Shown in pieces: positions 1-14,054 of a stretch of 64,000 nt of DNA (positions are counted from its first letter, which is position 1; every line of letters starts with the position of its first letter). Both the position numbers and the translations under genes were made by a program. The notes beneath the pieces are model-generated. The model did no database searches. It worked only from the letters and a program-made list of their open reading frames with translations, and was not told where the DNA came from. The stretch covers positions 1-64,000 of the forward strand of contig CAITDJ010000091.1 in assembly GCA_903891085.1 (NCBI GenBank), in the 5' to 3' direction. This stretch comes from an uncultured Bacteroidota bacterium (GTDB taxonomy: Bacteria; Bacteroidota; Bacteroidia; Bacteroidales; F082).

Positions 1-2
1 TC

Positions 3-380
3 GCCATCGTAATCGCCATTTACTTCCGCACCACCTGGCTTTGGCTTTTTATGCGCTCCTCTTACAGCATCCATTTAATCGACAGTCAGAGCAAACAAAA
101 ACAATTTATCAGACGTATTTTTATAATTCCCTGGTTTTTAGGAAGCCTTTTGCTTTCGTTGTTTACATTTTTGCCATACAGATACTGGTCATGGTTTTTA
201 ATCATCATTTTGATGGGTTTGGTAATCCTTCCTGTTTTTAACTTTTCCTTTCCGGAAAGAACACCCAGATTGAATAGATCTGACAAATCAGTGCTGGAGA
301 ACAGCCATCGGTTTCTGGCTTATCTGCTTATCCTGATCGCACTCTTTGCCTTTTCATATTTCAGAATATCAGTCTTATAG
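3..380 (+). CDS. membrane protein, 3' end only
   Basis: The reading frame is open from the left window edge, so the start lies outside; the first ATG inside the window (51) is probably internal. About 125 residues are visible. There are three strongly hydrophobic stretches, around the FRTTWLWLF segment, the IIPWFLGSLLLSLFTF / WFLIIILMGLVIL region, and a last helix FLAYLLILIALFAF near the C-terminus, with a short basic and polar loop between. I do not recognise the family. The last few residues (ISVL) overlap the start of a decayed adhesin fragment in another frame, so the native C-terminus may have been replaced by a rearrangement. An integral inner-membrane protein is the safe reading. Confidence 0.6.
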   Translation, partial: AIVIAIYFRTTWLWLFMRSSYSIHLIDSQSKQKQFIRRIFIIPWFLGSLLLSLFTFLPYRYWSWFLIIILMGLVILPVFNFSFPERTPRLNRSDKSVLENSHRFLAYLLILIALFAFSYFRISVL

Positions 381-388
381 GGCTGACC

Positions 389-719
389 TCCGTCTGTAAA
401 AACTTAACAATCAACGGTGCCCTGGTAATATCTGCCGGCAAGGCGTTAACGATTAGCGGCGAACTTGTAAACAATTCCGGTAACAGCGGACTGCTTATTC
501 AGAGCAATGCCACGGGAACAGGTTCACTGATCCATAATTCGGCCAGCGTAGGCGCCACAGTAAACCACTATATATCAGGCAATGCCGAAGCCTGGCATTT
601 CATCTCATCGCCAGTTTCTGACCAGGCCATTCCGTGCACCAAACCTGAAGAAAGGGATGTATTTATACCGGCTGGTGGCAGGAAATAGTGTGATCACGCG
701 AAAATGTCAGCTAGAATAA
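389..719 (+). pseudogene. remnant of a T9SS-secreted surface protein
   Basis: There is no start codon. In frame 2 the DNA encodes a beta-helix-like stretch (KNLTINGALVISAG, then LTISGELVNNSG, then GSLIHNSASVGATVNHYISG) followed by WHFISSPVSDQ, a combination common in long Bacteroidetes surface proteins. At about 640 the coherent reading moves to frame 3, where it continues as APNLKKGMYLYRLVAGNSV and then ITRK, ending at 719. That second part matches the usual end of a type A T9SS sorting domain. I infer a gene that lost its N-terminus and a large internal segment, joining mid-protein to sorting tail out of frame. Frame 2 itself stops at 688. Confidence 0.55.
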
Positions 720-942
720 CGGGTTAATTCATAACTTTTTTTATTCGTTGATCCTGAATACCATACTGGTCAAATTCAATTCCTGTAATTGGTTATGGTG
801 CCTTTCGAAAGGACGAAAAAAGCTTTTGATCATTTACCTTTGTTAAGGTTACTTCGCTTTGTTGTAATCCAAACAATCGTGATTGTATAGCTGTTTTTTA
901 CTGAAATACCTTGACAGTTTTTGAGGATAAAACCTCAAAACA

Positions 943-1167
943 ATGAAAGAGAAACTAACATTTAGTAACGCACTGACGGTGTCAGGTAACTTACTCGCTG
1001 AGTCAAGTATCGCCCTCACGGTCTCAAGTATCGCCCTGGCAGTGTCAAACAAAGTCAAAATTCATCCCGCAGCGGAGGGAGCAAAGACAAAATGCAAAGT
1101 CAAAGGGCAATTGAAACCTGATGTAGCTAGCATCACAAATACTTCAAAATCCAGATTAAAAAGGTAG
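943..1167 (+). CDS. short ORF with 7-residue repeats, doubtful
   Basis: A 74-residue ORF that I do not recognise. Its middle holds a 21-bp direct repeat (about 1001-1042) giving SSIALTV then SSIALAV, with a degenerate earlier unit (ALTVSGNLLAE). The C-terminal third is basic (KVKGQ, SKSRLKR). The opposite strand is also open here (849-1058), which weakens the case for either being real. It sits between an adhesin remnant and the endonuclease gene, in a stretch with no clear promoter. It could be a small gene or repeat-generated noise. Confidence 0.2.
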   Translation: MKEKLTFSNALTVSGNLLAESSIALTVSSIALAVSNKVKIHPAAEGAKTKCKVKGQLKPDVASITNTSKSRLKR

Positions 1168-1196
1168 CTACTGCCAGGAAGGTTAAATCTGAAACA

Positions 1197-2381
1197 TTAC
1201 TGAGCAATAATACTCGTCTGCATCGGCGAACCATCGGTTTTATAATCAATGCTTGCGCCACTTCCGGTATAACCGAAAATTTTGAAATAATAGGGGGTGC
1301 CTTCGGTGAGTGAACTAAAAGTGCATGTTTGTAAACCGGCTGCAACATTCAGGTTATTGGCATCATTCGCAACAGCGATCCCATCCGAAGGATTTGCAAG
1401 ACTGCCAAAACCCACATTGCTCATCCGTACCAAATAAGCCGTGGGCGTTGTGCTTCCTGTAGCATCGGTCCAGTTGAGGGTAATGGTATGTGACGAAAAA
1501 GATGCTGCGTGGTTTGTTGGCTCAGTGGCAGTCGTTGCGTTCCAAATTAAACCAGCGTATTCGGGATGGTCGATAAATGGGTTGCGGTTATGCTGGTAGG
1601 TTGTATAGATTTCATTGTTACGGTCAATCTCTTTCTGGCTCACCGGATCAGCAGTATGCCAGGCAAGCAGCAGATCGATAAACCATTGATCGTAGGCAGG
1701 GTAGGGGGTGCCATCGAGAACGGCATCGATGTTTGCCTTCCATAAAGCAATTCTGCTCTCGTAACGGGTGGCCATATACAAAAGATTGCGGGCAAGGTCA
1801 CCCTTGTATTCATCCCTGGGTTCAAAAACAATACCGCTGTAACCAGCAGTGGTACATGGCCCCAGTTTGCTTCCATTGAGCGAAGTCCAGGTTGGTTCGC
1901 TGACTTGTCCATAAGGATAATTGTTCCGCATCGAATTTACCTTACTATCAGAAGGTACAATATGAAATAGGTCGGTGTACATGGTATCAGCTGCGGCTTG
2001 TCCGCCTCCCCACCAGCTGTTGCAAAATGAATGTTCCCTGTTATAACAACCATTTTCATATCCGGGCGTGTTTGCACATTGATCCGGAGGGCCGAAATTG
2101 TACACATAGGGTAGTGTTCCATTTGGAATATCGCTATACATATCCCAAACCGTTCCATCCGTCTTATCATCAGTGGTATAAAAGGCAGTCCACAGATAAT
2201 CATAAGTTTTCTCTGTGTGATTCTTTACGATATTGTGCAGTGCTGTTTTTAATGGAGCACCATTTAGTCCGGCAGCCGTATTATAATAGCCCGAAGGTAT
2301 TTGCCCCATCACCGTAGCCTGAGCAGAAACAAAAAAAAGTAAAGCCAGGGCAAAGCGTCCTGATGCAGAGAAATATTTCAT
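1197..2381 (-). CDS. secreted endonuclease I family nuclease with C-terminal FN3 domain
   Basis: A 394-residue exported nuclease of the endonuclease I (EndA/NucM) family, expected to cut DNA or RNA non-specifically outside the cell. The start at 2381 (MKYFSASG) is preferred over the ATG nine codons upstream because it begins a clean signal peptide ending near residue 26. Family motifs are NREHS (114-118), HIVPSD from 140, MRNNYPYG from 151, GDLARN from 195 and HNRNPFIDHP (264-273), covering the His-Asn metal-binding fold. A fibronectin type III domain fills about 286-390. There is no T9SS sorting tail, so periplasmic location or another export route is possible. Monocistronic, transcribed leftward from its own promoter box at 2443-2450. 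Confidence 0.9.
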   Translation of the reverse strand: MKYFSASGRFALALLFFVSAQATVMGQIPSGYYNTAAGLNGAPLKTALHNIVKNHTEKTYDYLWTAFYTTDDKTDGTVWDMYSDIPNGTLPYVYNFGPPDQCANTPGYENGCYNREHSFCNSWWGGGQAAADTMYTDLFHIVPSDSKVNSMRNNYPYGQVSEPTWTSLNGSKLGPCTTAGYSGIVFEPRDEYKGDLARNLLYMATRYESRIALWKANIDAVLDGTPYPAYDQWFIDLLLAWHTADPVSQKEIDRNNEIYTTYQHNRNPFIDHPEYAGLIWNATTATEPTNHAASFSSHTITLNWTDATGSTTPTAYLVRMSNVGFGSLANPSDGIAVANDANNLNVAAGLQTCTFSSLTEGTPYYFKIFGYTGSGASIDYKTDGSPMQTSIIAQ

Positions 2382-2442
2382 AATTCCCTCGTTATAAATA
2401 AAGTACATAAATGATTAACAAGCAACCCCCCTAAAGGGGCTG

Positions 2443-2450
2443 CAAATGTA
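2443..2450 (-). promoter_or_regulatory. Bacteroidetes -7 box for the endonuclease gene
   Basis: On the minus strand the bases read TACATTTG, fitting TAnnTTTG. The transcript would start near 2437, giving a leader of about 55 nt that carries a small G/C-rich hairpin (GCCCC TTTA GGGGG, about 2425-2440). No clear -33 TTTG was found. Confidence 0.4.
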
Positions 2451-2503
2451 GGAAAATAGGGGGATTTGGCTAAAAATTAAATATTTTTTTAAGACAACGC
2501 AAA

Positions 2504-2919
2504 AAAATCGTCTCATTTTCATGAAACGCTTTCTGTAGTCTGGGCTATCTCGTCAAGTCTGAAGGACGAGACGAGACGACCCTCCCGATCCGGGATCGGG
2601 ATAATTTTAAATGAAAAATGGATCCCGCAAATGCGGAGCAATGCGCAAACTAAACCTGGAGTTGCTGGTTACTGGTTCGTTACATTTTTCATTTATAAAC
2701 ACTTAGTAACTGTTTAAATTTAGCTAAATGATAGATTTAAGAACAAGGAACATGAATTTACGATTTACGAATTGGGCACAAACCCAGTAGATTGGGATAC
2801 TTCATAAATCAAAAATCGTTCATCCTTATTCGATATTCAAAAGAACTAATAGTTTTCGAATTAAAGTAAGTATTTTAGACTGTCTCATAGTCAAACTTCA
2901 AGTTATAACTAGTTGTATT
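2504..2919 (+). repeat. dispersed repeat A, copy 1
   Basis: About 415 bp aligned by eye, in the same orientation, with 10431-10834. It begins with a hairpin-like stretch (CGTCTCAT ... ATGAAACG), contains the 19-nt palindrome at 2583-2601, and ends at AACTAGTTGTAT. Substitutions and small indels are spread throughout, including a different stretch around 2540-2580, so the copies are old. No ORF is conserved between copies. Probably a non-coding mobile or recombinogenic element. Confidence 0.75.
2583..2601. repeat. REP-like palindrome, copy 1
   Basis: TCCCGATCCGGGATCGGGA is a perfect palindrome of two 9-nt arms around one G. Identical at 10398-10416 and with one mismatch at 10497-10515, always inside or next to repeat A. 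Confidence 0.7.
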
Positions 2920-2960
2920 AGGGGTTGTTTATTAACCGTCAAATCAAATTATCTCCATAA

Positions 2961-3070
2961 AAATATTTTAGTCAAGGTCGATTAGGTGGCAATGACTGTT
3001 TCTTAATCTTTCCTTTCAGTTTATGTTGAGTTGTCGATAAAGCGCCTTCGGTTGCTTTAATTTGTCATGG
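2961..3070 (+). repeat. dispersed repeat B, copy 1
   Basis: About 110 bp from AATATTTTAGTCAAGG to TTTGTCATGG, repeated in the same orientation at 10215-10324 with scattered substitutions. Here B follows A by about 40 bp; at the second site B precedes A. Confidence 0.75.
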
Positions 3071-3756
3071 GGTTAAGTCAAGGTGTGGTCAAATTGACCG
3101 CAAACCCTGACTTAAAATTTATATTCCGATTGATCAGGTATGTCATATACAGCAGTAGTAACATGGTGAGTCTCTGGTGCCGAAATAAATCCCAAAGGCA
3201 TGGGTGAATGGAATGGTATACAGAAATGATCCACGACAAATCATAGTGAAGTTTCCTTGCATGTGTCAAAAGTGTATGGTGCATCTTGCAAAAGGAACAA
3301 GCGCGTATTACTGGCCTCTTTCACGGGAGGCTTATTGCGTTTCATGCGGACAGGACAGCTTTTAAGCTTTTATTGAGTCCGCGCAGTATGAAGCTGTTTA
3401 TCAAAGTCAGTATTAATGAATCGGGTGTGCCAAACCCTGTCCTGAGCGGAGTCGAAGGGAGCCAAAACAAAGTCACATGGGCAATGGGCAATCAGTTATG
3501 TACATCAAACTTCCGGATATTAGTGACTGGGAATCAAATGAGAAGGTGTCTGAGAACAGGCTTCAAAATTGGTTATTGGATTTTGGCGGTCAGGTGATCT
3601 TTGGCTGTAGTTTTGTAATTGGATAAATGCAAGCTTCTAATAAATATGCCTTTTGCTAAAGGTTACCGAAAATGGAATTGAAAATAATGAATGAATTAAA
3701 TTTCAGTCATAAGAGCCTTTTAACAGATGTTCCGGCTCAAAAATTCAGATTATAGT
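3071..3756. other. gene-free stretch
   Basis: No convincing gene. The short ORFs here (3078-3284 minus and 3286-3597 plus) lack family motifs, and the plus one runs through a dispersed palindromic repeat at 3435-3459. It may be decayed DNA left by the repeats on its left. Confidence 0.5.
3435..3459. repeat. dispersed imperfect palindrome
   Basis: The core CCTGAGCGGAGTCGAAGG is an imperfect inverted repeat. Closely similar sequences are scattered between genes in many bacteria; this identification is from memory of the motif, not a search. Confidence 0.45.
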
Positions 3757-3764
3757 TATATTTG
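3757..3764 (+). promoter_or_regulatory. -7 box for the TPR regulator gene
   Basis: TATATTTG fits TAnnTTTG and lies 24 bp upstream of the ATG at 3788. No good -33 element is visible. Confidence 0.4.
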
Positions 3765-3787
3765 CCAGTCTTAAAGCAAATATTGTC

Positions 3788-5464
3788 ATGAAAATCCTTT
3801 CGCAAAGTATTTTATATTTGCTTTTATTCTGTGCGTTATTTCATTATAAGGTTTTAGGTCAAAGCAATATTATAGTTGATTCTCTCATCTATAGGGTTGA
3901 AATATCCAAAGACGATTCTACCCGAATATCTTCTCTTATAGAAATTGCCAACTACTTTTCATCAACAAACTTATCGCTGTCGTTTCAATATGCTGACAAG
4001 GCATTGGAAATTGCCGAACATAGCGGAAATAAACAATTCTATGCCAAAGCTTTAATGGCGATTGGCAATATTTGTTTTTTTCAGGGTTTAATGGATATTT
4101 CGTTTCAACACTATTCCAAAGCTTTGGCAATTAACAAAGAAACGGAGAATAATAATGGCATTGCTAATGCATTAACAAACCTTGGTGGAATTTTACTTCA
4201 ACTTATGAAATTTGAAGAAGCCAAACGCTATTTTCAAGAAGCACTGCCACTTTTTATTAATTTGTCTGAGAAAAGAGGTGATACTATTCCTCCTTTTCAG
4301 GTAATCTCTATTTATAACAATCTTGGAATAGTTCATGAAAATCTGAATGAGTACAACCTAGCCATTGATTATTATCACAGGGGGATTAGCCTGGCAAGAC
4401 GGATGCCCCATCAACAAAAAAATCTGGCAATGTTACATAATAATCTCGGAAGCATTTATATGAAAATGGGAGAATTTGATGAGGCCTATAAGAATATGGA
4501 CGCAGCTCTGTTGATTCGGAAAGAACTAAATGATAAGAGTGGCGAAGCCTCTTCCTACAGAATGTTGGGTATTTTATATAAGTCGCAGCATAACTTTAAT
4601 AAAGCGATTTACAACTTTTACAATGGTTATAATTTAGCTACTTCTGTGGGAAGTACCTCTATATTATCCTCAATAAGCGAACAATTATTTGAAGTTTTCA
4701 ATTCATTAAACCAATCCGATTCGTCGCTAAAATATCACATCTTATTAAAACAGTATTCTGATAAGCTTAAAGGAGAGGAAACCTTGCAAGAGTTTACAAG
4801 AATGGAGATCACATCGCAATTTCAGGAAAAAGAGAAAATCCGTCTCATTGAACAGAGAAAACAAAAATTACGATATCTTTTTATTGCCATTCTTATGTTG
4901 CTTATTGTTGTCATACTTGGGCTTTTGTATGTGCTTTCCCAGAGCCGTTTGCGAAGACTAAGCCTGTTAAATAACAACATACAGCTTGCTTCGGAAAAAG
5001 GAGCTTTAGAAAAAGAATCGCTTTCCAAAGAATTAGAAATTAAGAACAAAGAGCTTACAACAAATGTGATTTGCCAAATTCGAAAGAATGAGCTTATCAA
5101 TAATATTGCTGATAAATTGATGTCTAACAGGCACAACTTTAAAAAAGAGAATCAGAACCTTATCAAAGTTATCATCAAAGAGCTTGAGAATTCTAAGGAA
5201 GATAGCATATGGATTGAGTTTGAAACACGGTTTCATCAAGTCCACAACGAATTCTACGAAAAACTTAATGAGATTAACCCTGATCTTTCTCCAAACGATA
5301 GAAGACTTTGTGCTTTTCTGCGTCTTAATATGACAACTAAAGAAATTTCTTCTATAACAGGCCAATCGCTCAGAAGCATTGATGTTGCAAGAACCCGGCT
5401 TCGCCAAAAACTCAATCTGACCAATGCAGAGGTTGGATTGATTGAGTACCTTTCCTGTATTTGA
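3788..5464 (+). CDS. TPR-transmembrane-HTH (LuxR-like) regulator
   Basis: A 558-residue protein of a type common in Bacteroidetes: a signal peptide (about 1-24), a tetratricopeptide array (about 40-330, with repeats such as ALTNLGGILLQLMKFEEAKRY and IYNNLGIVHENLNEYNLAI), one membrane helix (about 360-382), a coiled coil (about 390-430), and a C-terminal helix-turn-helix near 505-550 (LSPNDRRLCAFLRL, then TTKEISSITGQSLRSIDVAR). The TPRs would face the periplasm and the HTH the cytoplasm, so it probably links an envelope signal to transcription. Its target is unknown; the T9SS gene downstream on the same strand is an obvious candidate. No kinase domain is present. Confidence 0.85.
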   Translation: MKILSQSILYLLLFCALFHYKVLGQSNIIVDSLIYRVEISKDDSTRISSLIEIANYFSSTNLSLSFQYADKALEIAEHSGNKQFYAKALMAIGNICFFQGLMDISFQHYSKALAINKETENNNGIANALTNLGGILLQLMKFEEAKRYFQEALPLFINLSEKRGDTIPPFQVISIYNNLGIVHENLNEYNLAIDYYHRGISLARRMPHQQKNLAMLHNNLGSIYMKMGEFDEAYKNMDAALLIRKELNDKSGEASSYRMLGILYKSQHNFNKAIYNFYNGYNLATSVGSTSILSSISEQLFEVFNSLNQSDSSLKYHILLKQYSDKLKGEETLQEFTRMEITSQFQEKEKIRLIEQRKQKLRYLFIAILMLLIVVILGLLYVLSQSRLRRLSLLNNNIQLASEKGALEKESLSKELEIKNKELTTNVICQIRKNELINNIADKLMSNRHNFKKENQNLIKVIIKELENSKEDSIWIEFETRFHQVHNEFYEKLNEINPDLSPNDRRLCAFLRLNMTTKEISSITGQSLRSIDVARTRLRQKLNLTNAEVGLIEYLSCI

Positions 5465-5532
5465 CCTATATTCTTCTCACAAGCTGTTACTCCGAACATT
5501 AGTGCCTGCATTTTAAAAATCAATTCAACTCT

Positions 5533-5565
5533 AACGCACTATATATCAATGCTTAATGCGTTTTT
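5533..5565 (+). terminator. possible weak terminator
   Basis: AACGCA and TGCGTT pair across a loop of about 18 nt, followed by a run of T. The stem is short, so this is tentative. It lies 69 bp after the regulator stop. Confidence 0.3.
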
Positions 5566-5691
5566 GTAGTAAAGATGTAGCAATACATTTATTCCAATGT
5601 AGCGAAAAAGTGCATACGAATAGTTTGCTCCATCTTCTGATCCTATTTAATATTGCATAAGTTTTTAGTGCAACCCAAAAAATATGCTGTT

Positions 5692-5751
5692 ATGAAGTTA
5701 AGAATTACAATTATCGTGTTATTAGTATCGTGTTCAATAATACTATTGTAA
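5692..5751 (+). CDS. micro-ORF, lipoprotein-like 19-residue peptide
   Basis: ATG at 5692 opens MKLRITIIVLLVSCSIILL and stops with TAA at 5749-5751. It looks like a lipoprotein signal peptide with a lipobox-like LVSC and almost nothing after it. It is followed 13 bp later by another small ORF. It could be a real small peptide, a leader peptide controlling the downstream genes, or the stump of a decayed lipoprotein gene. Confidence 0.3.
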   Translation: MKLRITIIVLLVSCSIILL

Positions 5752-5764
5752 AAATTTGAAAATT

Positions 5765-5956
5765 ATGGAACAATCATCAGATGATTCGAAAAAGGAATCA
5801 AAAATAGAAGATAATATTCAAAAGCTCCTTGAGCAAAACAAAATTAATACGCAGGCATTAAGAAAACTGCTCAAATTCATCGAAGAGAAAAAGTCTACAG
5901 AAGATAAACTCTTTAATGAAAGCCGAGATAAAGTTACCAATAAAATTAAAAACTGA
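5765..5956 (+). CDS. small charged protein upstream of T9SS gene
   Basis: A 63-residue, highly charged, probably helical protein from ATG 5765 (MEQSSDDSKKES ...). A TTG three codons upstream is possible but less likely. It has no membrane segment and no Cys, is rich in Lys, Glu, Asn and Ser, and its middle (IQKLLEQNKINTQALRKLLK) looks amphipathic. I do not recognise a family. It ends 30 bp before the large T9SS protein on the same strand, so co-transcription is likely. Confidence 0.4.
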   Translation: MEQSSDDSKKESKIEDNIQKLLEQNKINTQALRKLLKFIEEKKSTEDKLFNESRDKVTNKIKN

Positions 5957-5986
5957 TCAATATTCATTAACATAAAACTCATTGCT

Positions 5987-8900
5987 ATGCGCAGAAATTT
6001 TACTTTAAATATTGGGGTACCACTATTAGCCCTGATGTTACTAACTTTAAGCACTATTCGTGTTTACCCAAATGAGATACCAGATAAAGGGAGAACTATC
6101 TATCCTTTAGTAGAGACCTTTGAGGGTGGGGTATTTCCCCCAACAGGATGGGCCTCGTACAGCCTGTTGAATGATTCACAAAACTGGGAACTTGATCCCT
6201 GGACTAACCATACTGAGGGTGGAACTAATTCGGCATTCCATAACCAAAGCTCTGAATTTACAATGGATAACTGGTTAGTCACACCACAAATAGGCATGCC
6301 CACCGAAGGGTTTTACTACCTCACGTTCTGGAGTTGGCTTGCGAATAACTGGTCATACAAAAAAAGTAGCGTGCTGGTAAGCACCGGAAGCCCTGATCCC
6401 GCCGACAATGATTATGTTGAAGTTTGGGCGCTGACAGAAACTAATAACGCAGGGGTCTGGTATCAATATTTTGTAAACCTTGAGGCTTATGCCGGTCAGA
6501 ACATCTATGTCGCTTTCAGATATGAAGGTGACCCATGGGGTCATACCTGGTATGTAGATGATGTTGCTTTAGGAGAGGAAGTTGACGATTCTCCTGTGCT
6601 GAATGTTAGCACTTTAGAAGTTTACCAAGCGGTAGGGTTGAATGGAACCGGCTCAAAAACATTTAATGTTATTAACGATGGAATTCTTGACCTGAATTTC
6701 GATATTGCAATTGAGTATCTGAATGCAGAAGGATGGCTTTTAGTAAATCCAACCACTGGAAGTGTGGGCACCCACGCTTCTGTTGAGATATTGCTTGATT
6801 TCGATGCTACTGGTCTGGAGTATGGAACATATCAGGCGAACCTTAACATAAGTAGCAACGATCCTGTGAACCCAACAACCACAGTACTGATAACTTTAGA
6901 AGTAGTTGATACTAATGTATATCCATTTACGGAGGATTTTGAAAGTGAAACTTTTCCACCTATCGGGTGGTCAATGTTTGATTCAGATGATGACGGAAAT
7001 GTATGGGCCCTAAGTTGGTATAATAATACTCCCGAGGGGCAATATTCTGCCTATCATGGATCGGGCAACCAATATCAGGATGGTTGGTTGGTTTCGCCGC
7101 AAATAACTATTCCTGAAGAAGGATTTTTCTATCTATCCTTTTGGAGCCTTGTCGGCGATGCTGCCTATTATTACAAGAACAGCGTTATGGTAAGCACAGG
7201 AAGCGGCAATCCGGCTGACGGGGATTTTGTTGAGGTATGGACAGTTGGGGATGTAGTGGAAAACTGGGTGCAGCATTTCATTGACCTTGAGGCTTATGCC
7301 GGGGAGGATATTTACATAGCATTCAGGTATGAAGGTGAATTGGCTCATTATTGGGTTGTTGATGATATTTCCTTCGGCGAGGAGATTGACGACTCTCCTA
7401 TTATGATTGTCAGCACAGTGGTATTAAACCAAACGGTGGGGCAGGAGGGCTCCGGCTCAAAATCCTTTAAAGTCATGAATGATGGTGTTCGAAACCTGAC
7501 ATTCGAAATAGAAATTGAATTTCTTAATGGTAACTCCTGGTTAACTGTAAGCCCAATAAGTGGTAGTATTCCCGGTAAATCTAACCAAACAATTTCTGTA
7601 GCCTTTGATGCCTCAGGCCTTGATTTGGGTACATATCAGGCAAATATTAACATTACAAGCAATGATACGGTGAATCCAACAGCAACAATACTTGCAACAC
7701 TCACTGTATTGCCGGCTCAAACGGTAAATCTTACAATAGTTTCCCCACAGTATACATTCCCGACGGGTGTTTCATCCAACGGCATGTATGTATCTGGAAG
7801 TCAGTTTGGTGGAATGAGCAGCTATTTATGGACAATGTTTAGTGGAACCGTTGATTTCGTTGGGGATGCAGAGGGTGTTTCTGATAATGGGATAACAGCA
7901 GGGACTTATACAACTGAATATATGTACGAAGGAATGGAAGTAAGCACTGCCGGTCTATGGAATAAAACAACAGGCCAATGGCAGTTTTTGGGCATGAATC
8001 CTGATTCACCTGAAATATTTGGCACATCCTATAATCTGGCCTATGACATCACAGCCGATGGAAATAAAGTAGTCGGGATGCAATGGTATCCTGATTGGAC
8101 TGTTAAAGCTTTCAGTTGGACGCTGGAGAACGGTTACGATATGATAGGTTCACCTATTGAATCAAACACTAGAGCAAATGGAATAAGCGCCAATGGAAGT
8201 GTTATATTTGGTTGGGCTGAACCGAACTGGACCAGAACCCCGGTTATTTGGTATAACAATGAAATAATCTATTTAGATGAAACACTGAATGGCGAGGCAT
8301 TTGGTGCTTCAGCAAGCGGTAATTATGTTACTGGTACTTTAGGTTGGGAAAATGGTTTTATTTGGTCACCAACGGAGGGTGTTACTCTATTCCAAAATAC
8401 GTTGAATCTTGGTACATTGAATCCACTTAAGGTCCTTGATGATGGCACGGTATTCGGCTATACAGGAGAAGGATTCCCACCAATGCCTCCAGATAGAAGA
8501 GCTTTTGTGAGACATCCTGATGGTGTCATGGAAACATTTAATGAGTATGCAGCCGGTAGAGGTTGGTTTGAGGCCTCAGATTGGATATTTTACAGTATCA
8601 ATGATGTTACACCTGATGGAAATAAATTCATTGGTGCAGCCCTACTACCATCTGGCGAATCGATAAGCTTTATTTTAGATTTAAATCCGGGCAATCCTGG
8701 AATTGAAATAAATCAATTGGAGCTAAGCGAAAATCTTGTTCCAGGAGACACGGCAACACAAACTTTATCTATTCAAAATATTGGTGCCGGTTTACTTCAT
8801 TATCATGTTATAGTGCAATATACCGCTGCTACACCAAAAGTTCAACAGGTTCCAATTGGCATTGATTATAAGTCAGAAAAACTTGAATTGGTGGAACAAA

Positions 8901-9859
8901 AAACAGCTAATCAAAGTAAACCCGACAATCAAGCCAGCAAATCGGGAACCGTACTTAACTACGACGGAATGAATGCCAATTCCGTTGGGTTGATGAATGG
9001 TGGAACTTTTTATGGAGCAGCCCGCTTTCCATCAGAGCTAACATCCGTATTTGAAAACTATCAATTTGAATCTGTTGATGTTTATATAAACGATAACCCA
9101 TCAAATCTTAAACTCATTGTCTGGGATGCAGGCACCACAACTACGCCGGGATCAATTCTCTACCAGCAAATTTATACTCCTACACCTGAAAGCTGGAATA
9201 CAATTGTACTCGATAATACCATAACTATCAGTGGTTCTGATATCTGGGTAGGCTTTGAAGTCACACACGAAGCAGGATCATTCGTGCTCGGGATTGATGG
9301 AGGTCCGGTCGTTCAGGATGGTGATTGGATAAGTGAGGATGCTATCAATTGGGATCGTCTCTCCGCCAACGGCCTGAATGGAAATTGGAATATTCGTGCA
9401 AATCTTTCATTCAATGGCATGGATTGGTTGAGTGTTAGCCCGGGGTCAGGAGTGATTGACGGGGCTTCCACCCAAGATATAGCCATTTCATTTAATTCTG
9501 AAGGGCTTGAACCCATAACATACTTTGCTAACCTCAGAATCACAAGTAACGATACTGACAACCCACTTTTAATTATCCCAGTAACGCTAGAGGTAGAACT
9601 TGGCATTTCAGTAAGCGAATTGCAGCAGCTTGATGTGAAATTAATTCCAAACCCTGCCACCAATCAGTTGACAGTTAAAGCAGATCACCAGATAGAAAGT
9701 ATCTGCATAACAGATATTGCAGGGAAAGCATTGTACACAGTTCATTGTGCTGATTACAATGAACTATTGGATTTATCATCCTTAAATAATGGATTGTATA
9801 TAGTTCTGGTTACTACCGAACAGGGAACATACGCCAAAAAATTACAGGTTGTCAAATAA
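5987..9859 (+). CDS. large T9SS-secreted multidomain surface protein
   Basis: A 1290-residue exported protein. N-terminal signal to about 28. Two related cleaved-adhesin (jelly-roll) domains lie at about 40-198 and 312-468, each starting ETFEGG/EDFESE with FPPxGW and ending WYVDD/WVVDD, and each is followed by a BACON- or Ig-like domain (about 200-308 and 470-575; GTYQANLNISSND is typical). Residues 580-900 are a repeat region resembling extracellular HAF-type repeats (VSDNGITAG, ISANGSVIFGW). A further Ig-like unit, a K/Q/S-rich linker (about 955-985), a second jelly-roll-like domain (985-1140), another BACON-like unit and a type A T9SS sorting domain (about 1205-1290, IPNPATNQLTVKA to YAKKLQVVK) follow. 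It is probably anchored at the surface and binds glycans or proteins; no catalytic residues were recognised. Confidence 0.85.
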   Translation: MRRNFTLNIGVPLLALMLLTLSTIRVYPNEIPDKGRTIYPLVETFEGGVFPPTGWASYSLLNDSQNWELDPWTNHTEGGTNSAFHNQSSEFTMDNWLVTPQIGMPTEGFYYLTFWSWLANNWSYKKSSVLVSTGSPDPADNDYVEVWALTETNNAGVWYQYFVNLEAYAGQNIYVAFRYEGDPWGHTWYVDDVALGEEVDDSPVLNVSTLEVYQAVGLNGTGSKTFNVINDGILDLNFDIAIEYLNAEGWLLVNPTTGSVGTHASVEILLDFDATGLEYGTYQANLNISSNDPVNPTTTVLITLEVVDTNVYPFTEDFESETFPPIGWSMFDSDDDGNVWALSWYNNTPEGQYSAYHGSGNQYQDGWLVSPQITIPEEGFFYLSFWSLVGDAAYYYKNSVMVSTGSGNPADGDFVEVWTVGDVVENWVQHFIDLEAYAGEDIYIAFRYEGELAHYWVVDDISFGEEIDDSPIMIVSTVVLNQTVGQEGSGSKSFKVMNDGVRNLTFEIEIEFLNGNSWLTVSPISGSIPGKSNQTISVAFDASGLDLGTYQANINITSNDTVNPTATILATLTVLPAQTVNLTIVSPQYTFPTGVSSNGMYVSGSQFGGMSSYLWTMFSGTVDFVGDAEGVSDNGITAGTYTTEYMYEGMEVSTAGLWNKTTGQWQFLGMNPDSPEIFGTSYNLAYDITADGNKVVGMQWYPDWTVKAFSWTLENGYDMIGSPIESNTRANGISANGSVIFGWAEPNWTRTPVIWYNNEIIYLDETLNGEAFGASASGNYVTGTLGWENGFIWSPTEGVTLFQNTLNLGTLNPLKVLDDGTVFGYTGEGFPPMPPDRRAFVRHPDGVMETFNEYAAGRGWFEASDWIFYSINDVTPDGNKFIGAALLPSGESISFILDLNPGNPGIEINQLELSENLVPGDTATQTLSIQNIGAGLLHYHVIVQYTAATPKVQQVPIGIDYKSEKLELVEQKTANQSKPDNQASKSGTVLNYDGMNANSVGLMNGGTFYGAARFPSELTSVFENYQFESVDVYINDNPSNLKLIVWDAGTTTTPGSILYQQIYTPTPESWNTIVLDNTITISGSDIWVGFEVTHEAGSFVLGIDGGPVVQDGDWISEDAINWDRLSANGLNGNWNIRANLSFNGMDWLSVSPGSGVIDGASTQDIAISFNSEGLEPITYFANLRITSNDTDNPLLIIPVTLEVELGISVSELQQLDVKLIPNPATNQLTVKADHQIESICITDIAGKALYTVHCADYNELLDLSSLNNGLYIVLVTTEQGTYAKKLQVVK

Positions 9860-9906
9860 TCTAAATTTTTCTTAAGTTGAAGGACCCTTTAGTCAGATGA
9901 TAGGGT

Positions 9907-9940
9907 AAATGGGGAGGTGCATAGCTTCCCCATTTTTATT
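9907..9940 (+). terminator. rho-independent terminator after the T9SS gene
   Basis: AAATGGGGA pairs with TCCCCATTT around a 10-nt loop, followed by TTATTTCTT. It lies about 50 bp downstream of the T9SS stop codon. Confidence 0.75.
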
Positions 9941-10214
9941 TCTTATTTCATCTTTTATGTTTCTCAAAATCCTGAATACTAAAATTAGAGTGACCCATCG
10001 CCCCCCTTTCGGCGCAGTGTACAACTACGTCGTATTTCATTCCGGTCTTTGACCGATTAAAATCAAAAAACTACACTACTATGACCACTAGTACCGAATT
10101 AATGATCAATCAGCGTTTTATTTCTCTCGCTCAGTGTAGTTCTCCAAACAACGTTAGATTGAGACCATTGATACAATTATTAAGGATCGTGGCGGACTGA
10201 ATTGCATTTCGTAG
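9941..10214. other. gene-free stretch
   Basis: No ORF or RNA gene recognised. Related short words CGCAGTGTACAACTAC, AACTACACTACTA and CGCTCAGTGTAGTT suggest remains of an inverted-repeat element, but I could not assign it. Confidence 0.4.
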
Positions 10215-10324
10215 AATATTTTAGTCAAGGTCGCTTTGGCGGCAATGACTGTTTCTTAATCTTTCTTTCCTGTTTATTTCTTGTTTGCCTATAAAGCGCT
10301 TTCGGTTGCTTCAATTTGTCATGG
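10215..10324 (+). repeat. dispersed repeat B, copy 2
   Basis: Same orientation as 2961-3070, starting AATATTTTAGTCAAGG and ending TTTGTCATGG. Here it is followed after 7 bp by the tandem heads of repeat A. Confidence 0.75.
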
Positions 10325-10331
10325 TAATAAC

Positions 10332-10420
10332 AAACCGTCTCATCTTTACGAGACGGTTTCTGTGGTCACTTCAGAATGGATTAAAACCTAACAACCCTCC
10401 CGATCCGGGATCGGGATACG
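10332..10420 (+). repeat. tandem head unit of repeat A
   Basis: An 89-bp unit duplicated immediately downstream at 10431-10519 with few changes. It starts with a perfect 10-bp hairpin (AAACCGTCTC / GAGACGGTTT, loop ATCTTTAC) and ends with the 19-nt palindrome at 10398-10416. Only two units are present. Confidence 0.7.
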
Positions 10421-10430
10421 TTAATAAAAA

Positions 10431-10834
10431 AAACCGTCTCATTTTCATGAAACGGTTTCTGTTGTCGCTTCGGAATGGATTAAAACCTAACGACCCTCTC
10501 GATCCGGGATCGGGATAATTTTGAATGAAAAATGGATCCCGCAAATGCGGAGCAATGTGCAAATCTAAACCTGGATTTGTTGGTTACTGGTTCGTCATAT
10601 TTTTCATTTATTCAACACTTAGTAACTGTAGAAATTCAGCTAAATGATAGATTTATGAACAACGAACATGGATTTACGATTTACGAAGTGGGCACAAATC
10701 CTGTAGATTGGGTACTTCATAAATCAAAAATCATTCATCCTTATTCGATATTCAAAAGAACTAATAGTTTTCGAATTAAATTAAGAATTTTAGACTATCT
10801 CAAAGACAAACTTCAAGTTATAACTAGTTGTATA
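10431..10834 (+). repeat. dispersed repeat A, copy 2
   Basis: About 404 bp matching 2504-2919 in the same orientation, through AACTAGTTGTAT. It contains the third palindrome (10497-10515, one mismatch). A 109-residue ORF (10532-10861) runs through it but is not preserved in copy 1, so it is not called as a gene. Confidence 0.75.
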
Positions 10835-10916
10835 GGATGTATTTTGCAACTGTACTTGTAATTTATCACCATTTCTGTACCTTCAAGATGTATTCAAATT
10901 GTTTGAACGGAATGAA

Positions 10917-10950
10917 AAAAGCCACTTACAATTAAATTGTAAGTGGCTCA
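10917..10950 (-). terminator. terminator of the tRNA-Ser/tRNA-Pro unit
   Basis: GCCACTTACAATT pairs with AATTGTAAGTGGC across two bases; read on the minus strand it ends in TTTTTT. It lies just past the 3' end of tRNA-Pro. Confidence 0.8.
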
Positions 10951-10959
10951 TTTTCAGTG

Positions 10960-11034
10960 TCGGGGCAGTAGGATTCGAACCTACGACCCCCTGCTCCCAA
11001 AGCAGGTACGCTAACCGGACTGCGCTATGCCCCG
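10960..11034 (-). tRNA. tRNA-Pro (anticodon TGG)
   Basis: On the minus strand the acceptor arms CGGGGCA and TGCCCCG pair, the anticodon arm is CCTGC-TTTGGGA-GCAGG giving TGG, and the T arm is GTAGG-TTCGAAT-CCTAC. The discriminator is A and CCA is not encoded. It decodes proline CCN codons. Confidence 0.95.
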
Positions 11035-11042
11035 AATGTTGG

Positions 11043-11129
11043 CGGAGAAGGGGGGATTCGAACCCCCGGTACCCTTTCGAGTACGACAGTTTAGCAAACT
11101 GTTGGTTTCAGCCACTCACCCACCTCTCC
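11043..11129 (-). tRNA. tRNA-Ser (anticodon GCT)
   Basis: An 87-nt class II tRNA with acceptor GGAGAGG pairing with CTTCTCC, anticodon arm ACAGT-TTGCTAA-ACTGT giving GCT, a long variable arm (GTACTCGAAAGGGTAC) and T arm GGGGG-TTCGAAT-CCCCC. The discriminator is G. It reads AGC/AGU serine codons. It lies 8 bp upstream of tRNA-Pro on the same strand, one transcript. Confidence 0.95.
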
Positions 11130-11190
11130 AAACGGTTAAGAACTTCTCAATTTCACACCTTCGTTGCCAATGGCTGCGTAATTGGAGGTG

Positions 11191-11221
11191 CAAAATTAGA
11201 GATTTATCTCATGTATACAAA
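11191..11221 (-). promoter_or_regulatory. promoter of the tRNA-Ser/tRNA-Pro operon
   Basis: On the minus strand TTTG (11218-11221) is followed after 19 bp by TAATTTTG (11191-11198), a full match to the Bacteroidetes -33/-7 promoter. It lies about 60 bp upstream of tRNA-Ser. Confidence 0.7.
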
Positions 11222-11388
11222 TTATTTAGTAAAAATATTGAATTCTTTGCTGATTCAATCTCGAAACACGAAGGGAAGTATTTCATATAATATTGAATTA
11301 CTGTAATATAACACTTCATTATGATTTCGCAGATGGTAAACTTAATGAAAAATTAACATAGTTTATTCAGCATTTTCGTTGCTTTTCA

Positions 11389-11396
11389 TACCTTTG
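11389..11396 (+). promoter_or_regulatory. -7 box for the phosphoesterase operon
   Basis: TACCTTTG fits TAnnTTTG and ends 11 bp before the ATG at 11408, so the mRNA leader must be very short. Confidence 0.55.
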
Positions 11397-11407
11397 CCGC
11401 CTGAAAA

Positions 11408-12751
11408 ATGAGAATAAAAAAGTTTTTACCCTACCTTATTGCTATTGCCTTGATCGTATCCGGTTATATCCTGACGAGTCTGGTATTCCCAAAAAATCTG
11501 AACCGCTATCCCGGCCTCGTGATGATCGTTCTGCTTGAACTTTATCTGTGGAATTTCATCAAACGTAAAATATTCATTTATCATCTGTGGATTCGCTCCT
11601 CACTCATCCTGCTCTACTGGCTACCACTTTTCGCCTTGGGATTGAGCACTGTTGTGGCTGTTTATGTGCCATCTACAGCGTGGAACATTACATTTACTAT
11701 CTATTTATTTGGTTTTATTTTTGTTTTTTATCTCGCCAAACTTATTCCTGCCCTGATATTACTGACATACAAACTGATCAGTAGTGTGCGACGACTAGTT
11801 ACCCTGTTGTTGGGAAAAAGCAAAATAGAATATGATGAAAATGTATCACGCATCAGCCGTGCACGTTTCATTGAAAATGTTGCATATGTAAGTGGTGGCA
11901 TCGTACTCGGAAGTCTGATAACAGGAATGTTTAAATGGGTACATGATTTCAGGATTTTCAAACATGAAATATCTATAGCGAAATTGCCCGATGTTTTTGA
12001 CGGTTATAAAATTGTTCAGATTTCTGATCTGCACCTGGGATCGTGGTCTTCCGGCGAATCACTGCAAGACGCTGTCGATCTGATCAATGACGAAGAGGCA
12101 GATATGGTTGTGTTTACAGGTGATTTGGTGAACTATGCCAGCGATGAGGCGTTTCGTTTTCAGAACATTTTAAGCGGTATCAGGTCAAAAAATGGCGTAC
12201 TCGCCATTCTTGGCAACCACGATTATGGCGATTACACCCATTGGCCTTCGGTGGAAGATAAAAAACAGAATATGGAGGACCTGTTCAGGTTTTACAACAA
12301 AATTGGCTGGAAATTGCTCCGTAATGAGCATATTATTATTGAGCGTGAAGGGCAGAAGCTGGGAATAATCGGAGTCGAAAACTGGGGCAGCAATCCGCGT
12401 TTCCCGCAGTTGGGCGACATTGAGATAGCCAGTGAAGGAATGGGAGAGGTTTCGGCTAAAATATTACTTTCACACGATCCTAGTCATTGGAAATCAGTAG
12501 TTTTACCACAATACAACGATATTGACCTGATGTTGGCCGGCCACACCCATGGATTTCAGTTCGGTATCGAGATACCCGGGATAAAGTGGAGCCCAGCCCA
12601 ATATATGTACAATGAATGGGCCGGCTTATATACTGACCCGCTAACAAATCAGAAACTCTATGTAAACCGCGGTATCGGTTCGATTGGTTATCCCGGCCGT
12701 ATAGGAATCTTACCTGAAATAACAGTAATTAAATTGCAATCAATAAGATAA
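11408..12751 (+). CDS. membrane-anchored calcineurin-like metallophosphoesterase
   Basis: A 447-residue protein with four or so N-terminal membrane helices (residues 5-25, 38-52, 58-85, 95-125), a further short hydrophobic stretch near 155-175, and a phosphoesterase domain from about 190. Motifs are SDLHLG (near 205), GDLV, GNHDYG (near 270), LSHDP and AGHTHGF (near 377), which bind two metal ions and perform phosphoester hydrolysis. The arrangement matches the YkuE/YaeI-like group; the natural substrate (a lipid pyrophosphate or nucleotide) cannot be told from sequence. The next gene starts 3 bp downstream, an alkaline phosphatase, so this operon is about phosphate release. Confidence 0.85.
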   Translation: MRIKKFLPYLIAIALIVSGYILTSLVFPKNLNRYPGLVMIVLLELYLWNFIKRKIFIYHLWIRSSLILLYWLPLFALGLSTVVAVYVPSTAWNITFTIYLFGFIFVFYLAKLIPALILLTYKLISSVRRLVTLLLGKSKIEYDENVSRISRARFIENVAYVSGGIVLGSLITGMFKWVHDFRIFKHEISIAKLPDVFDGYKIVQISDLHLGSWSSGESLQDAVDLINDEEADMVVFTGDLVNYASDEAFRFQNILSGIRSKNGVLAILGNHDYGDYTHWPSVEDKKQNMEDLFRFYNKIGWKLLRNEHIIIEREGQKLGIIGVENWGSNPRFPQLGDIEIASEGMGEVSAKILLSHDPSHWKSVVLPQYNDIDLMLAGHTHGFQFGIEIPGIKWSPAQYMYNEWAGLYTDPLTNQKLYVNRGIGSIGYPGRIGILPEITVIKLQSIR

Positions 12752-12754
12752 TTT

Positions 12755-13882
12755 ATGAAAAAAACACTCTTTCTCATTCCGGTATTTGTTTTGGCAATGC
12801 TAAGCCTTGCTTTAACTTCATTTCAATCAACTCAGACCGAATTAGCGGCGAATGGTCAGGAAAAGACGGACCAGCCGATAGACGTTCCGAAAAACATAAT
12901 CTTGTTTATTGGTGATGGCATGGGATTCGCGCAGGTTCAGGCAGCCATTGCTGCTTCTGATCGTGCCTTGAATTTTGGCCGATTTCCGGTAACGGGTATG
13001 ATTCAAACCAAATCGTCAGATAATGTAATTACTGATTCCGGTGCAGGTGGTACCGCGCTGGCAACAGGCAAAAAAACCAATAATGGCATGATTGGTATGG
13101 GGCCTGATAGTCTGGAAGTGAAAAGCATGCTCAATATTTTTTCTTCGCTGGGCAAAGCAACAGGTGTAGTCACGACCTGTGCACTTACACATGCTACCCC
13201 GGCCGCATTTCTGGCACATGATATTTCGCGCAGAAACACCCAGGCGATTGCAGCTGACATTGCTGATTCACCGGTTGATGTTTTGATAGGTGGTGGAATG
13301 GCCGATTTTGCCGTAAGAGAAGATGGAAGAAACCTCCCCGAAGAGATGAAAGTAAAAGGATGGGAAGTAATGACATGTCTGATGGAGGCCGAACAAAAAA
13401 CACCCAGGTTTGTCGTTTTCACATCGGATGAACATCCGGTAGCTGCCAACAAGGGGAGGGAAGATGAACTGCAACGATCTGTTGCTATTGCCATCAATGC
13501 TTTGAAAAATGATCCGGATGGCTTCTTTTTGATGGTGGAAGGCTCACAGATTGATTGGGCAGGACATAACAATGATTCTGCATATTTACTTGCCGAGATG
13601 CTTGATTTTGACCGCACGCTGGGCGTTGCCCTCGACTTTGCGGCTGCTGATGGTAATACATTGATCGTTGTAACCGCCGATCACGAAACAGGCGGACTGA
13701 CATTGCCACATGATCCAAAGGACATCAAAAACCAGACAAGACTGGCTTTTTCAACGGGTGATCATACTGCGTCCATGGTTCCTGTTTTCGCCTTTGGCCC
13801 TTCATCCAGCCATTTTACCGGGATTTACGATAACACAGAGATTTTCAGGAGGATATTGTTTTCGACGAATATCGCCCGTTAA
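12755..13882 (+). CDS. alkaline phosphatase (PhoA superfamily)
   Basis: A 375-residue exported alkaline phosphatase that hydrolyses phosphomonoesters in the periplasm. A signal peptide or anchor covers about 1-25. Visible motifs: IGDGMG (D54, metal), TDSGAGGTALATG with the nucleophile S95, THATPAAF, ADHETGG and STGDHTASMVPV (metal-binding His and Asp). It is shorter than E. coli PhoA and lacks the crown domain, as in many bacterial homologues. It lies 3 bp after the metallophosphoesterase and shares its promoter. A shared terminator hairpin with the downstream tRNA-Lys follows. No Pho box was identified. Confidence 0.92.
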   Translation: MKKTLFLIPVFVLAMLSLALTSFQSTQTELAANGQEKTDQPIDVPKNIILFIGDGMGFAQVQAAIAASDRALNFGRFPVTGMIQTKSSDNVITDSGAGGTALATGKKTNNGMIGMGPDSLEVKSMLNIFSSLGKATGVVTTCALTHATPAAFLAHDISRRNTQAIAADIADSPVDVLIGGGMADFAVREDGRNLPEEMKVKGWEVMTCLMEAEQKTPRFVVFTSDEHPVAANKGREDELQRSVAIAINALKNDPDGFFLMVEGSQIDWAGHNNDSAYLLAEMLDFDRTLGVALDFAAADGNTLIVVTADHETGGLTLPHDPKDIKNQTRLAFSTGDHTASMVPVFAFGPSSSHFTGIYDNTEIFRRILFSTNIAR

Positions 13883-13943
13883 AAGAAAAAATTATTGATC
13901 AATTATTGATTCAATAGTAGACTTTTTACCATAAGAAATAAAC

Positions 13944-13978
13944 AAAAAAAGAGACCCTTGATAGAGTCTCTTTTTTTT
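13944..13978. terminator. bidirectional terminator
   Basis: AAAAAAAGAGAC pairs with GTCTCTTTTTTT around a short loop. It can end the alkaline phosphatase transcript on the plus strand and tRNA-Lys on the minus strand. Confidence 0.8.
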
Positions 13979-13981
13979 ATG

Positions 13982-14054
13982 TGATCCGTTCGGGATTCGA
14001 ACACGAGACCCTTTGCTTAAAAGGCAAATGCTCTACCAGCTGAGCTAACGAATC
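13982..14054 (-). tRNA. tRNA-Lys (anticodon TTT)
   Basis: On the minus strand acceptor GATTCGT pairs with ACGGATC, the anticodon arm is TTTGC-CTTTTAA-GCAAA (TTT) and the T arm carries TTCGAAT. The discriminator is A. A -7 box lies at 14069-14076. Confidence 0.95.

Follow-up and report, generated by a model that had tools for sequence, protein, structure and literature searches.

The window analysed here, bases 1-64000 of the 69,822-base contig C91 of a Bacteroidota draft genome (G000; 4.0 Mb, 155 contigs), contains two direct repeats, A and B, arranged in the order A-B ... B-A around the genes for a tetratricopeptide repeat (TPR) protein and for a protein sorted by the type IX secretion system (T9SS), together called the cargo below. 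We read this locus as an accessory-gene site anchored at tRNA-Pro(TGG), most likely the relic of a tRNA-targeted integration that lost its integrase, and we hold this reading with about even confidence. The site looks like a decayed, tRNA-anchored gene island without an integrase rather than a new type of mobile element. Since A and B are unrelated, and since the B copies of the window are not each other's closest relatives, the A-B ... B-A order is most likely the result of nesting and not of one duplication.

Self-comparison of window positions 1-14000 placed repeat A at 2501-2918 and 10427-10833 (87.9% identity over 420 columns, E 1.5e-147) and repeat B at 2962-3070 and 10215-10324 (86.4% over 110 columns, E 8e-31), both pairs in direct orientation. 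The repeats, their orientation and order, and the enclosure of a TPR regulator and a T9SS gene, whose domains were identified by Pfam, had been described in a first-pass annotation of this DNA, and all were borne out. A partial third copy of the A head was found at 10329-10427, so that the order on the right side is B - A head - A. The annotation had stated that this order is not accounted for by a simple duplication or by a transposon with inverted ends, and in this it was correct. A single duplication of an A+B block is disfavoured, as the kinship of the A cores differs from that of the B copies, and none of the five inverted pairs listed for 1-14000 closely brackets positions 3788-9859. Known RNAs were sought in A and B with Rfam; over 1-14000 the search returned tRNAs and matches below the curated score, those in 10200-10900 being weak matches only.

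Repeat A is a composite of four parts: a head resembling a terminator and tRNA-Pro 3' end (about 99 nt), a spacer, a dispersed core of about 187 bp, and a 28-nt tail. Identity between the left and right copies outside gaps is 92.5% in the head hairpin and 82.0% in the remainder of the head, which holds 12 gaps; values for the other parts are given in Table 1. To trace these parts, G000 was compared with three further genomes of the same genus (G001, from a sister species, G002 and G003), and G015 and G009, each from another genus, were used as well. The core is present in at least 13 copies in G000, including both window copies (at least 11 lie outside the window), and in at least four clear copies and two fragments in G001, with none in G002 or G003 among the matches listed; these counts are minima, 40 of 43 candidates having been scored. 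No tRNA gene was present in the core flanks at the 13 loci checked. In a tree of 17 core copies, from which the two G001 fragments were left out, the window cores were sisters, with support (94/91) just below the program's 95/80 mark. They are 92.1% identical to each other, and their identity to the remaining 15 copies does not exceed 89.1%.

Short, multicopy and dispersed, the core resembles a miniature inverted-repeat transposable element (MITE). Its terminal 19 nt match in inverted orientation at 15 of 19 positions, a level reached by 3 of 100000 position-fixed shuffles; by free local alignment the ends were not significant (315 of 2000 shuffles reached the score). The core is like bacterial MITEs (PMC10969869) in being short, dispersed and non-coding; its short inverted ends pass the position-fixed test only. 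Neither the head nor the spacer of about 100 nt, which together make up some 200 nt outside the core, has further copies in G000 apart from short matches, and in the four genomes of the genus the head is found at tRNA-Pro only. We therefore conclude that A was duplicated as a block of about 0.4 kb, with the core already inside.

The origin of the head became visible at the tRNA-Pro locus. In the window, an intact tRNA-Pro gene stands at one end of the site with its 3' end facing the island, which lies at lower coordinates. In G001, the intact tRNA-Pro gene is followed outward by a hairpin, a tRNA-like unit, a second hairpin, a second unit, and a third hairpin cut by the end of the contig; the gene's own terminator hairpin, the second, full hairpin, the third, cut one, and the tRNA-like units between them all fall within 256 bp. 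In the outermost unit, the final 19 nt of the tRNA-Pro gene are present without a mismatch directly behind the hairpin of that unit. Window positions 10329-10499 align to this array and into the end of the intact gene with 80.9% identity over 173 nt. Scored against the G001 tRNA-Pro gene with its terminator, the left head reached 58 (shuffle maximum 25), unit 1 reached 35 (20) and unit 2 reached 65 (23), the match of the left head being carried mostly by the terminator (41 of 47 columns). Based on the G001 array, the alignment of 10329-10499 and scores above those of shuffles, we conclude that the A head derives from tRNA-Pro 3' ends together with the terminator. In alignment, the array units examined consist of the 3' part of the tRNA and the terminator, with the 5' part absent, and the spacing between units is 99 nt. 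A tandem array that lost its middle, or a repeat-mediated insertion, had been put forward in the first-pass annotation; a split array or such an insertion fits A, in that tandem A-type units lie behind tRNA-Pro in G001 and the cargo lies between members of such an array.

That the GATCCGGGATCGGG palindrome is merely a repeat common in Bacteroidota was rejected: of 100 family genomes, two contain the longer pattern (exact matches only), and these two belong to this genus and have it at tRNA-Pro. The intact tRNA-Pro gene of G000 has a different terminator, which it has in common with G002; at 10913-10956 this terminator forms a near-perfect inverted repeat that is terminator-like on both strands. 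The tRNA-Pro locus of G002 has neither A nor cargo, and is conserved from window position 10882 rightwards only, with other open reading frames (ORFs) leftward.

The layout of outer tRNA fragments and inner B copies seen at tRNA-Pro recurs at tRNA-Arg on contig C63 of G003. There, a B copy on one side and a B 5' end on the other flank a gene that is part of a block sharing 91% identity over 1,725 bp with contig C121 of G000, where the homologue encodes a protein with AAA_14 and DUF4143 domains. Outside B on C63 are two 3' fragments of tRNA-Arg(CCT) with terminators. The left one joins 21 nt of tRNA to 109 nt of the sequence found downstream of the intact tRNA-Arg gene on G003 contig C150 (score 220, shuffle maximum 32), and the right one of 16 nt of tRNA and a terminator (score 45, shuffle maximum 31). 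In G000 (contigs C121/C133), the ATPase gene lies between two B copies. An intact tRNA-Arg(CCT) gene is located 5.1 kb away on one side; on the opposite side, some 0.3 kb past the other B copy, is a tRNA-Arg end of 13-14 nt followed by a terminator like that of C63. This short end is weak when taken alone (scores of 28 and 32 against shuffle maxima of 29 and 30; a match of 13-14 nt is present at 2 of the 17 control loci as well), and it gains credibility from its by-eye likeness to C63. The stretches in which the ATPase gene lies between direct-orientation B repeats are 2-1815 on G000 C121 (L157/L236) and approximately 8027-9756 on G003 C63 (L238), in one 1.7-kb block that is 91% alike. As the two loci may represent one old insertion in two genomes, they are counted as one parallel.

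The distribution of the cargo was both patchy and variable in location. It was found in one of the three other genomes of the genus, at another site. TPR and T9SS protein identities were 84/79% for G002, 83/78% for G015 and 80/59% for G009. Since four control genes of the window, found on one stretch in G015, are 51, 56, 64 and 66% identical, the cargo of G015 is more alike than the controls. G001 and G003 yielded distant matches only, the best-scoring being 32% and 31% for TPR (partial matches up to 37% and 40%) and 33% each for T9SS (partial up to 44% and 41%; 17 candidates per genome scored). The cargo of G002 lies about 2.9 kb behind a photolyase gene, on a contig collinear with window positions 30787-56090 (19 of 20 ORFs), while in G000 the photolyase is followed by another gene after 62 bases. 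Because of this location, and because the G002 tRNA-Pro locus lacks the cargo, we conclude that the cargo has a different address in each species. With regard to vertical descent, the TPR tree disfavours a grouping of G000 with G002 (p-AU, approximately unbiased test, 0.045), and the T9SS tree weakly groups them (70/61).

The limits of the cargo block common to G002 and the window lie about 100 bp or less from its genes, and approximately 0.6 kb and 0.3 kb of non-cargo DNA separate it from the B copies. Neither A nor B lies alongside the cargo in G002 and G015, and no direct repeats bracket it at loci L147 or L148; at L149, in G009, the sole finding was a duplicated tRNA-Pro(GGG) end about 4 kb outside. 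On this G009 contig (C167), the 3' end and terminator (66 nt) of the tRNA-Pro(GGG) gene at 515-589 are duplicated with 98.5% identity 386 bp onward (557-622 and 943-1008), a tRNA-end scar in another genus near the same TPR/T9SS cargo. A middle gene, 642 amino acids long in G015, is cut short (306 amino acids) in G002 and gone in G000. At window positions 5738-5743, homologies to both sides abut with an overlap of about 6 nt where the relatives have this further gene, which, on that ground, was probably lost from G000.

Table 1. Features of the tRNA-Pro site in window coordinates.
Feature	Position	Strand	Basis
Left A head: decayed tRNA-Pro 3' end and terminator hairpin, distal to the intact tRNA-Pro	2501..2602	-	terminator-like site 2528-2509 on - strand
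A spacer, left	2603..2703	.	93.0% to 10517-10618 outside gaps
MITE-like dispersed repeat in left A	2704..2890	.	multicopy in G000
Left B (longer than the 2961-3070 of the first-pass annotation)	2945..3206	+	G002 C73 over 2946-3161 (89.4%), G002 C318 over 2945-3206 (86.4%)
TPR protein with weak LuxR-type helix-turn-helix tail, putative regulator	3788..5464	+	TPR_12 E 1e-30; GerE E 0.012, 15.7 bits, under cut-off 23.5
T9SS-sorted protein with two Cleaved_Adhesin stretches	5987..9859	+	Por_Secre_tail; PF07675, PF18962 above cut-off
Third dispersed repeat, between cargo and right B	10001..10122	.	82-83% matches G001 C58, C107; further in G001, G002, partial G000 C124
Right B, core only	10215..10324	+	86.4% to left B; 91% to G002 C73
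Array unit 1: terminator hairpin and decayed tRNA-Pro 3' part (third A head)	10329..10427	-	77/93 columns identical to G001 unit 2
Array unit 2, head of right A	10428..10516	-	terminator-like site 10460-10429 on - strand
Right A: spacer, MITE-like repeat (10619-10805), 28-nt tail	10517..10833	.	identities 93.0, 92.5, 96.4% to left copy
Intact tRNA-Pro (TGG), proximal anchor, 3' end facing the island	10959-11034	-	ARAGORN; Rfam tRNA 68.2 bits

Six ORFs of positions 1-14000 were scanned with Pfam; they correspond to endonuclease I, the TPR protein, the T9SS protein, a metallophosphatase, an alkaline phosphatase, and an ORF of 66 amino acids without a match. Within G003, the closest homologue of the window endonuclease I (70%) is located on contig C201 (L151, 1-1576), just upstream of a tRNA-Ser gene cut by the contig end. 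In other species, that place at the tRNA-Ser side is occupied by the metallophosphatase, which was not found in G003; the endonuclease I of the window is on the opposite side of the tRNA pair compared with G003.

The first-pass annotation had handled A and B as one system. The data split them, the A cores being sisters and the B copies not being nearest relatives. Among 149 family genomes searched (at most five candidates scored per genome), repeat B, up to about 260 bp in length, turned up in four, each a member of this genus, and a family-wide element was rejected on this distribution. The ends of the copy on G002 C73 form imperfect terminal inverted repeats (0 of 2000 shuffles reached the score). 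G000 has four copies: one piece closes C133 and another opens C121, and since they share an exact 43-nt overlap these two were counted as one. The two window copies were 82.6% identical to each other, and 87.7% and 84.7% identical to the G002 C73 copy. A tree of eight B rows was built, with the pieces at C133, C242, C150, C358 and C139 and the second C63 piece left out. A separate history of the window B copies is favoured, though not proven, and B, which elsewhere occurs without A, probably arrived independently of it.

Intact tRNA genes lie within about 2.1 kb of 4 of 10 B loci (the window, G003 C150, G001 C139 and G002 C73), for which a rough binomial estimate with assumed tRNA densities gave 1e-4 to 9e-4; 11% of window positions lie within the same distance of a tRNA. 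At 17 loci of other repeats, no tRNA gene was present in flanks of about 1.5 kb, a distance at which the B loci near a tRNA would be two only (a third is at 1,507 bases). As the size of the flank matters and 3'-end fragments are equally frequent in controls, no conclusion was rested on these proximity statistics.

Two comparisons bear on how such a site could arise. Riemerella anatipestifer belongs to Bacteroidota, and integrative and mobilizable elements use tRNA 3' ends as anchors. In Riemerella anatipestifer, the 10K genomic island adjoins tRNA-Arg, carries a tyrosine integrase and perfect repeats of 53 bp, and is reported to excise (PMC6764341). By our reading of the sequence printed there, the 53-bp attachment (att) repeat consists of a tRNA-Arg 3' end followed by a terminator-like hairpin, the same make-up as that of the units described here and of the tRNA-Arg fragments on G003 C63. 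By this likeness, we take the outer repeats of the window to be what tRNA-targeted integration leaves; in contrast to those of the 10K island, they have decayed, are longer and stand partly in tandem, and an integrase was not recognised. Integrative and mobilizable elements (PMC5704250) are alike as integrated accessory elements; unlike them, the site here has no relaxase, transfer or integrase gene recognised among the six Pfam-scanned ORFs.

In our preferred scenario, the outer repeat A goes back to units made of the tRNA-Pro 3' end and terminator, a type of sequence that integrases targeting tRNA genes duplicate at the ends of islands. In this lineage, a dispersed MITE-like repeat would have landed in one such unit, and the unit would have been duplicated together with it. 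The module of the TPR regulator and T9SS protein is now found between a far unit (2501) and near units (10329, 10428) beside the intact tRNA, and B is a second, genus-specific repeat inside the outer tRNA-derived fragments on both sides. Both the making of the A pair and the arrival of the cargo would be due to site-specific recombination. A crossover from one A copy to the other could remove some 7.9 kb; such a loss was not observed, and the draft contigs of the four genomes of the genus showed no single hybrid A.

Several observations weigh against an integration relic. No integrase was recognised in the six scanned ORFs, the remaining short ORFs lying outside the scan. The tRNA link of the window units depends on G001: neither flank of the window passes the filter for tRNA 3' ends, and Rfam shows no tRNA in 10200-10900. 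Against the tRNA gene alone, the score was reached by 0 of 1000 shuffles for unit 2, 19 for unit 1 and 227 for the left head, which is not significant. With the A copies only 88% alike, any event that made the pair is old. The cargo has no contrast in GC content (0.32-0.43 in its kilobases, compared with 0.35-0.46 around it). A sister pairing of the window B copies is disfavoured, not rejected (p-AU 0.105), and the tRNA 3'-end filter did not separate B stretches (3 of 12, one of the three falling inside the ATPase gene, probably by chance) from control loci (2 of 17). The genus sample consists of four genomes only, with contigs that break at or near the tRNA-Pro locus; C15 of G001 terminates within the array and C201 of G003 begins inside the tRNA-Ser region.

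An alternative that we consider possible, though on the unlikely side, is that the array grew by slipped replication behind tRNA-Pro with no integrase involved, that the cargo dropped in by ordinary recombination, and that dispersed repeats piled up because intergenic DNA near the tRNA tolerates insertion. The units are indeed short, tandem and of similar length (99-nt spacing), their decay is graded, no recombinase was recognised in the ORF listing or by Pfam on six ORFs, and this intergenic DNA also holds a member of a third family of dispersed repeats. Against this alternative, the units examined carry the 3' part of the tRNA and the terminator without the 5' part, which is what tRNA-targeted integration leaves. 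Fragments of the same make-up bracket a different gene at tRNA-Arg in G003, and the 66-nt duplication of a tRNA-Pro(GGG) 3' end and terminator in G009 lies about 4 kb from the same cargo.

We regard it as distinctly improbable that common intergenic repeats of the genus flank the cargo by coincidence, with no link to its arrival. Such a view would be in keeping with a core dispersed in at least 13 copies and B in four, with the stretches of other DNA between the shared block and B, and with tRNA 3'-end matches no commoner at B loci than in controls. The first-pass annotation had raised a random spread of the copies without a link to gene content; this describes the core, but not the head, which was found only at tRNA-Pro. 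Coincidence is also countered by the head and spacer, found only in the window copies and pointing to duplication of A as one block, and by the recurrence of the nested layout at tRNA-Arg. Very unlikely, finally, is a single mobile unit with A and B as composite ends that moves the whole 7-kb module at once. In its favour, the cargo is enclosed by direct copies of both repeats, and a different gene is likewise enclosed by B at another locus; but the cargo of G002 and G015 has neither alongside, A heads were found only at tRNA-Pro while B is found elsewhere without A, and kinship differs between the two pairs.

Beyond the preferred reading of an integration relic, a broader proposition can be made, which we treat as a long shot. 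The genus may keep integrase-less landing arrays behind tRNA genes, composed of tandem units of tRNA 3' end and terminator with an inner B, where unrelated cargo (the TPR/T9SS module at tRNA-Pro, the DUF4143 ATPase at tRNA-Arg) would be gained and lost, either through functions acting in trans or through host recombination; B would then be a functional inner boundary and not a bystander. Among the titles and abstracts listed in literature searches, none describes this layout, which does not prove that it is undescribed.

With the site read as a tRNA-anchored relic, the odd order of its repeats becomes a readable history, in which the outer repeats show the origin of the site, a tRNA, and the inner ones form a layer of their own. 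Decayed tRNA ends may escape notice, and those described here were recognisable mainly by way of a sister species. If the layouts at tRNA-Pro and tRNA-Arg share one cause, they would represent a route for these Bacteroidota to swap genes of surface proteins without an adjacent integrase.

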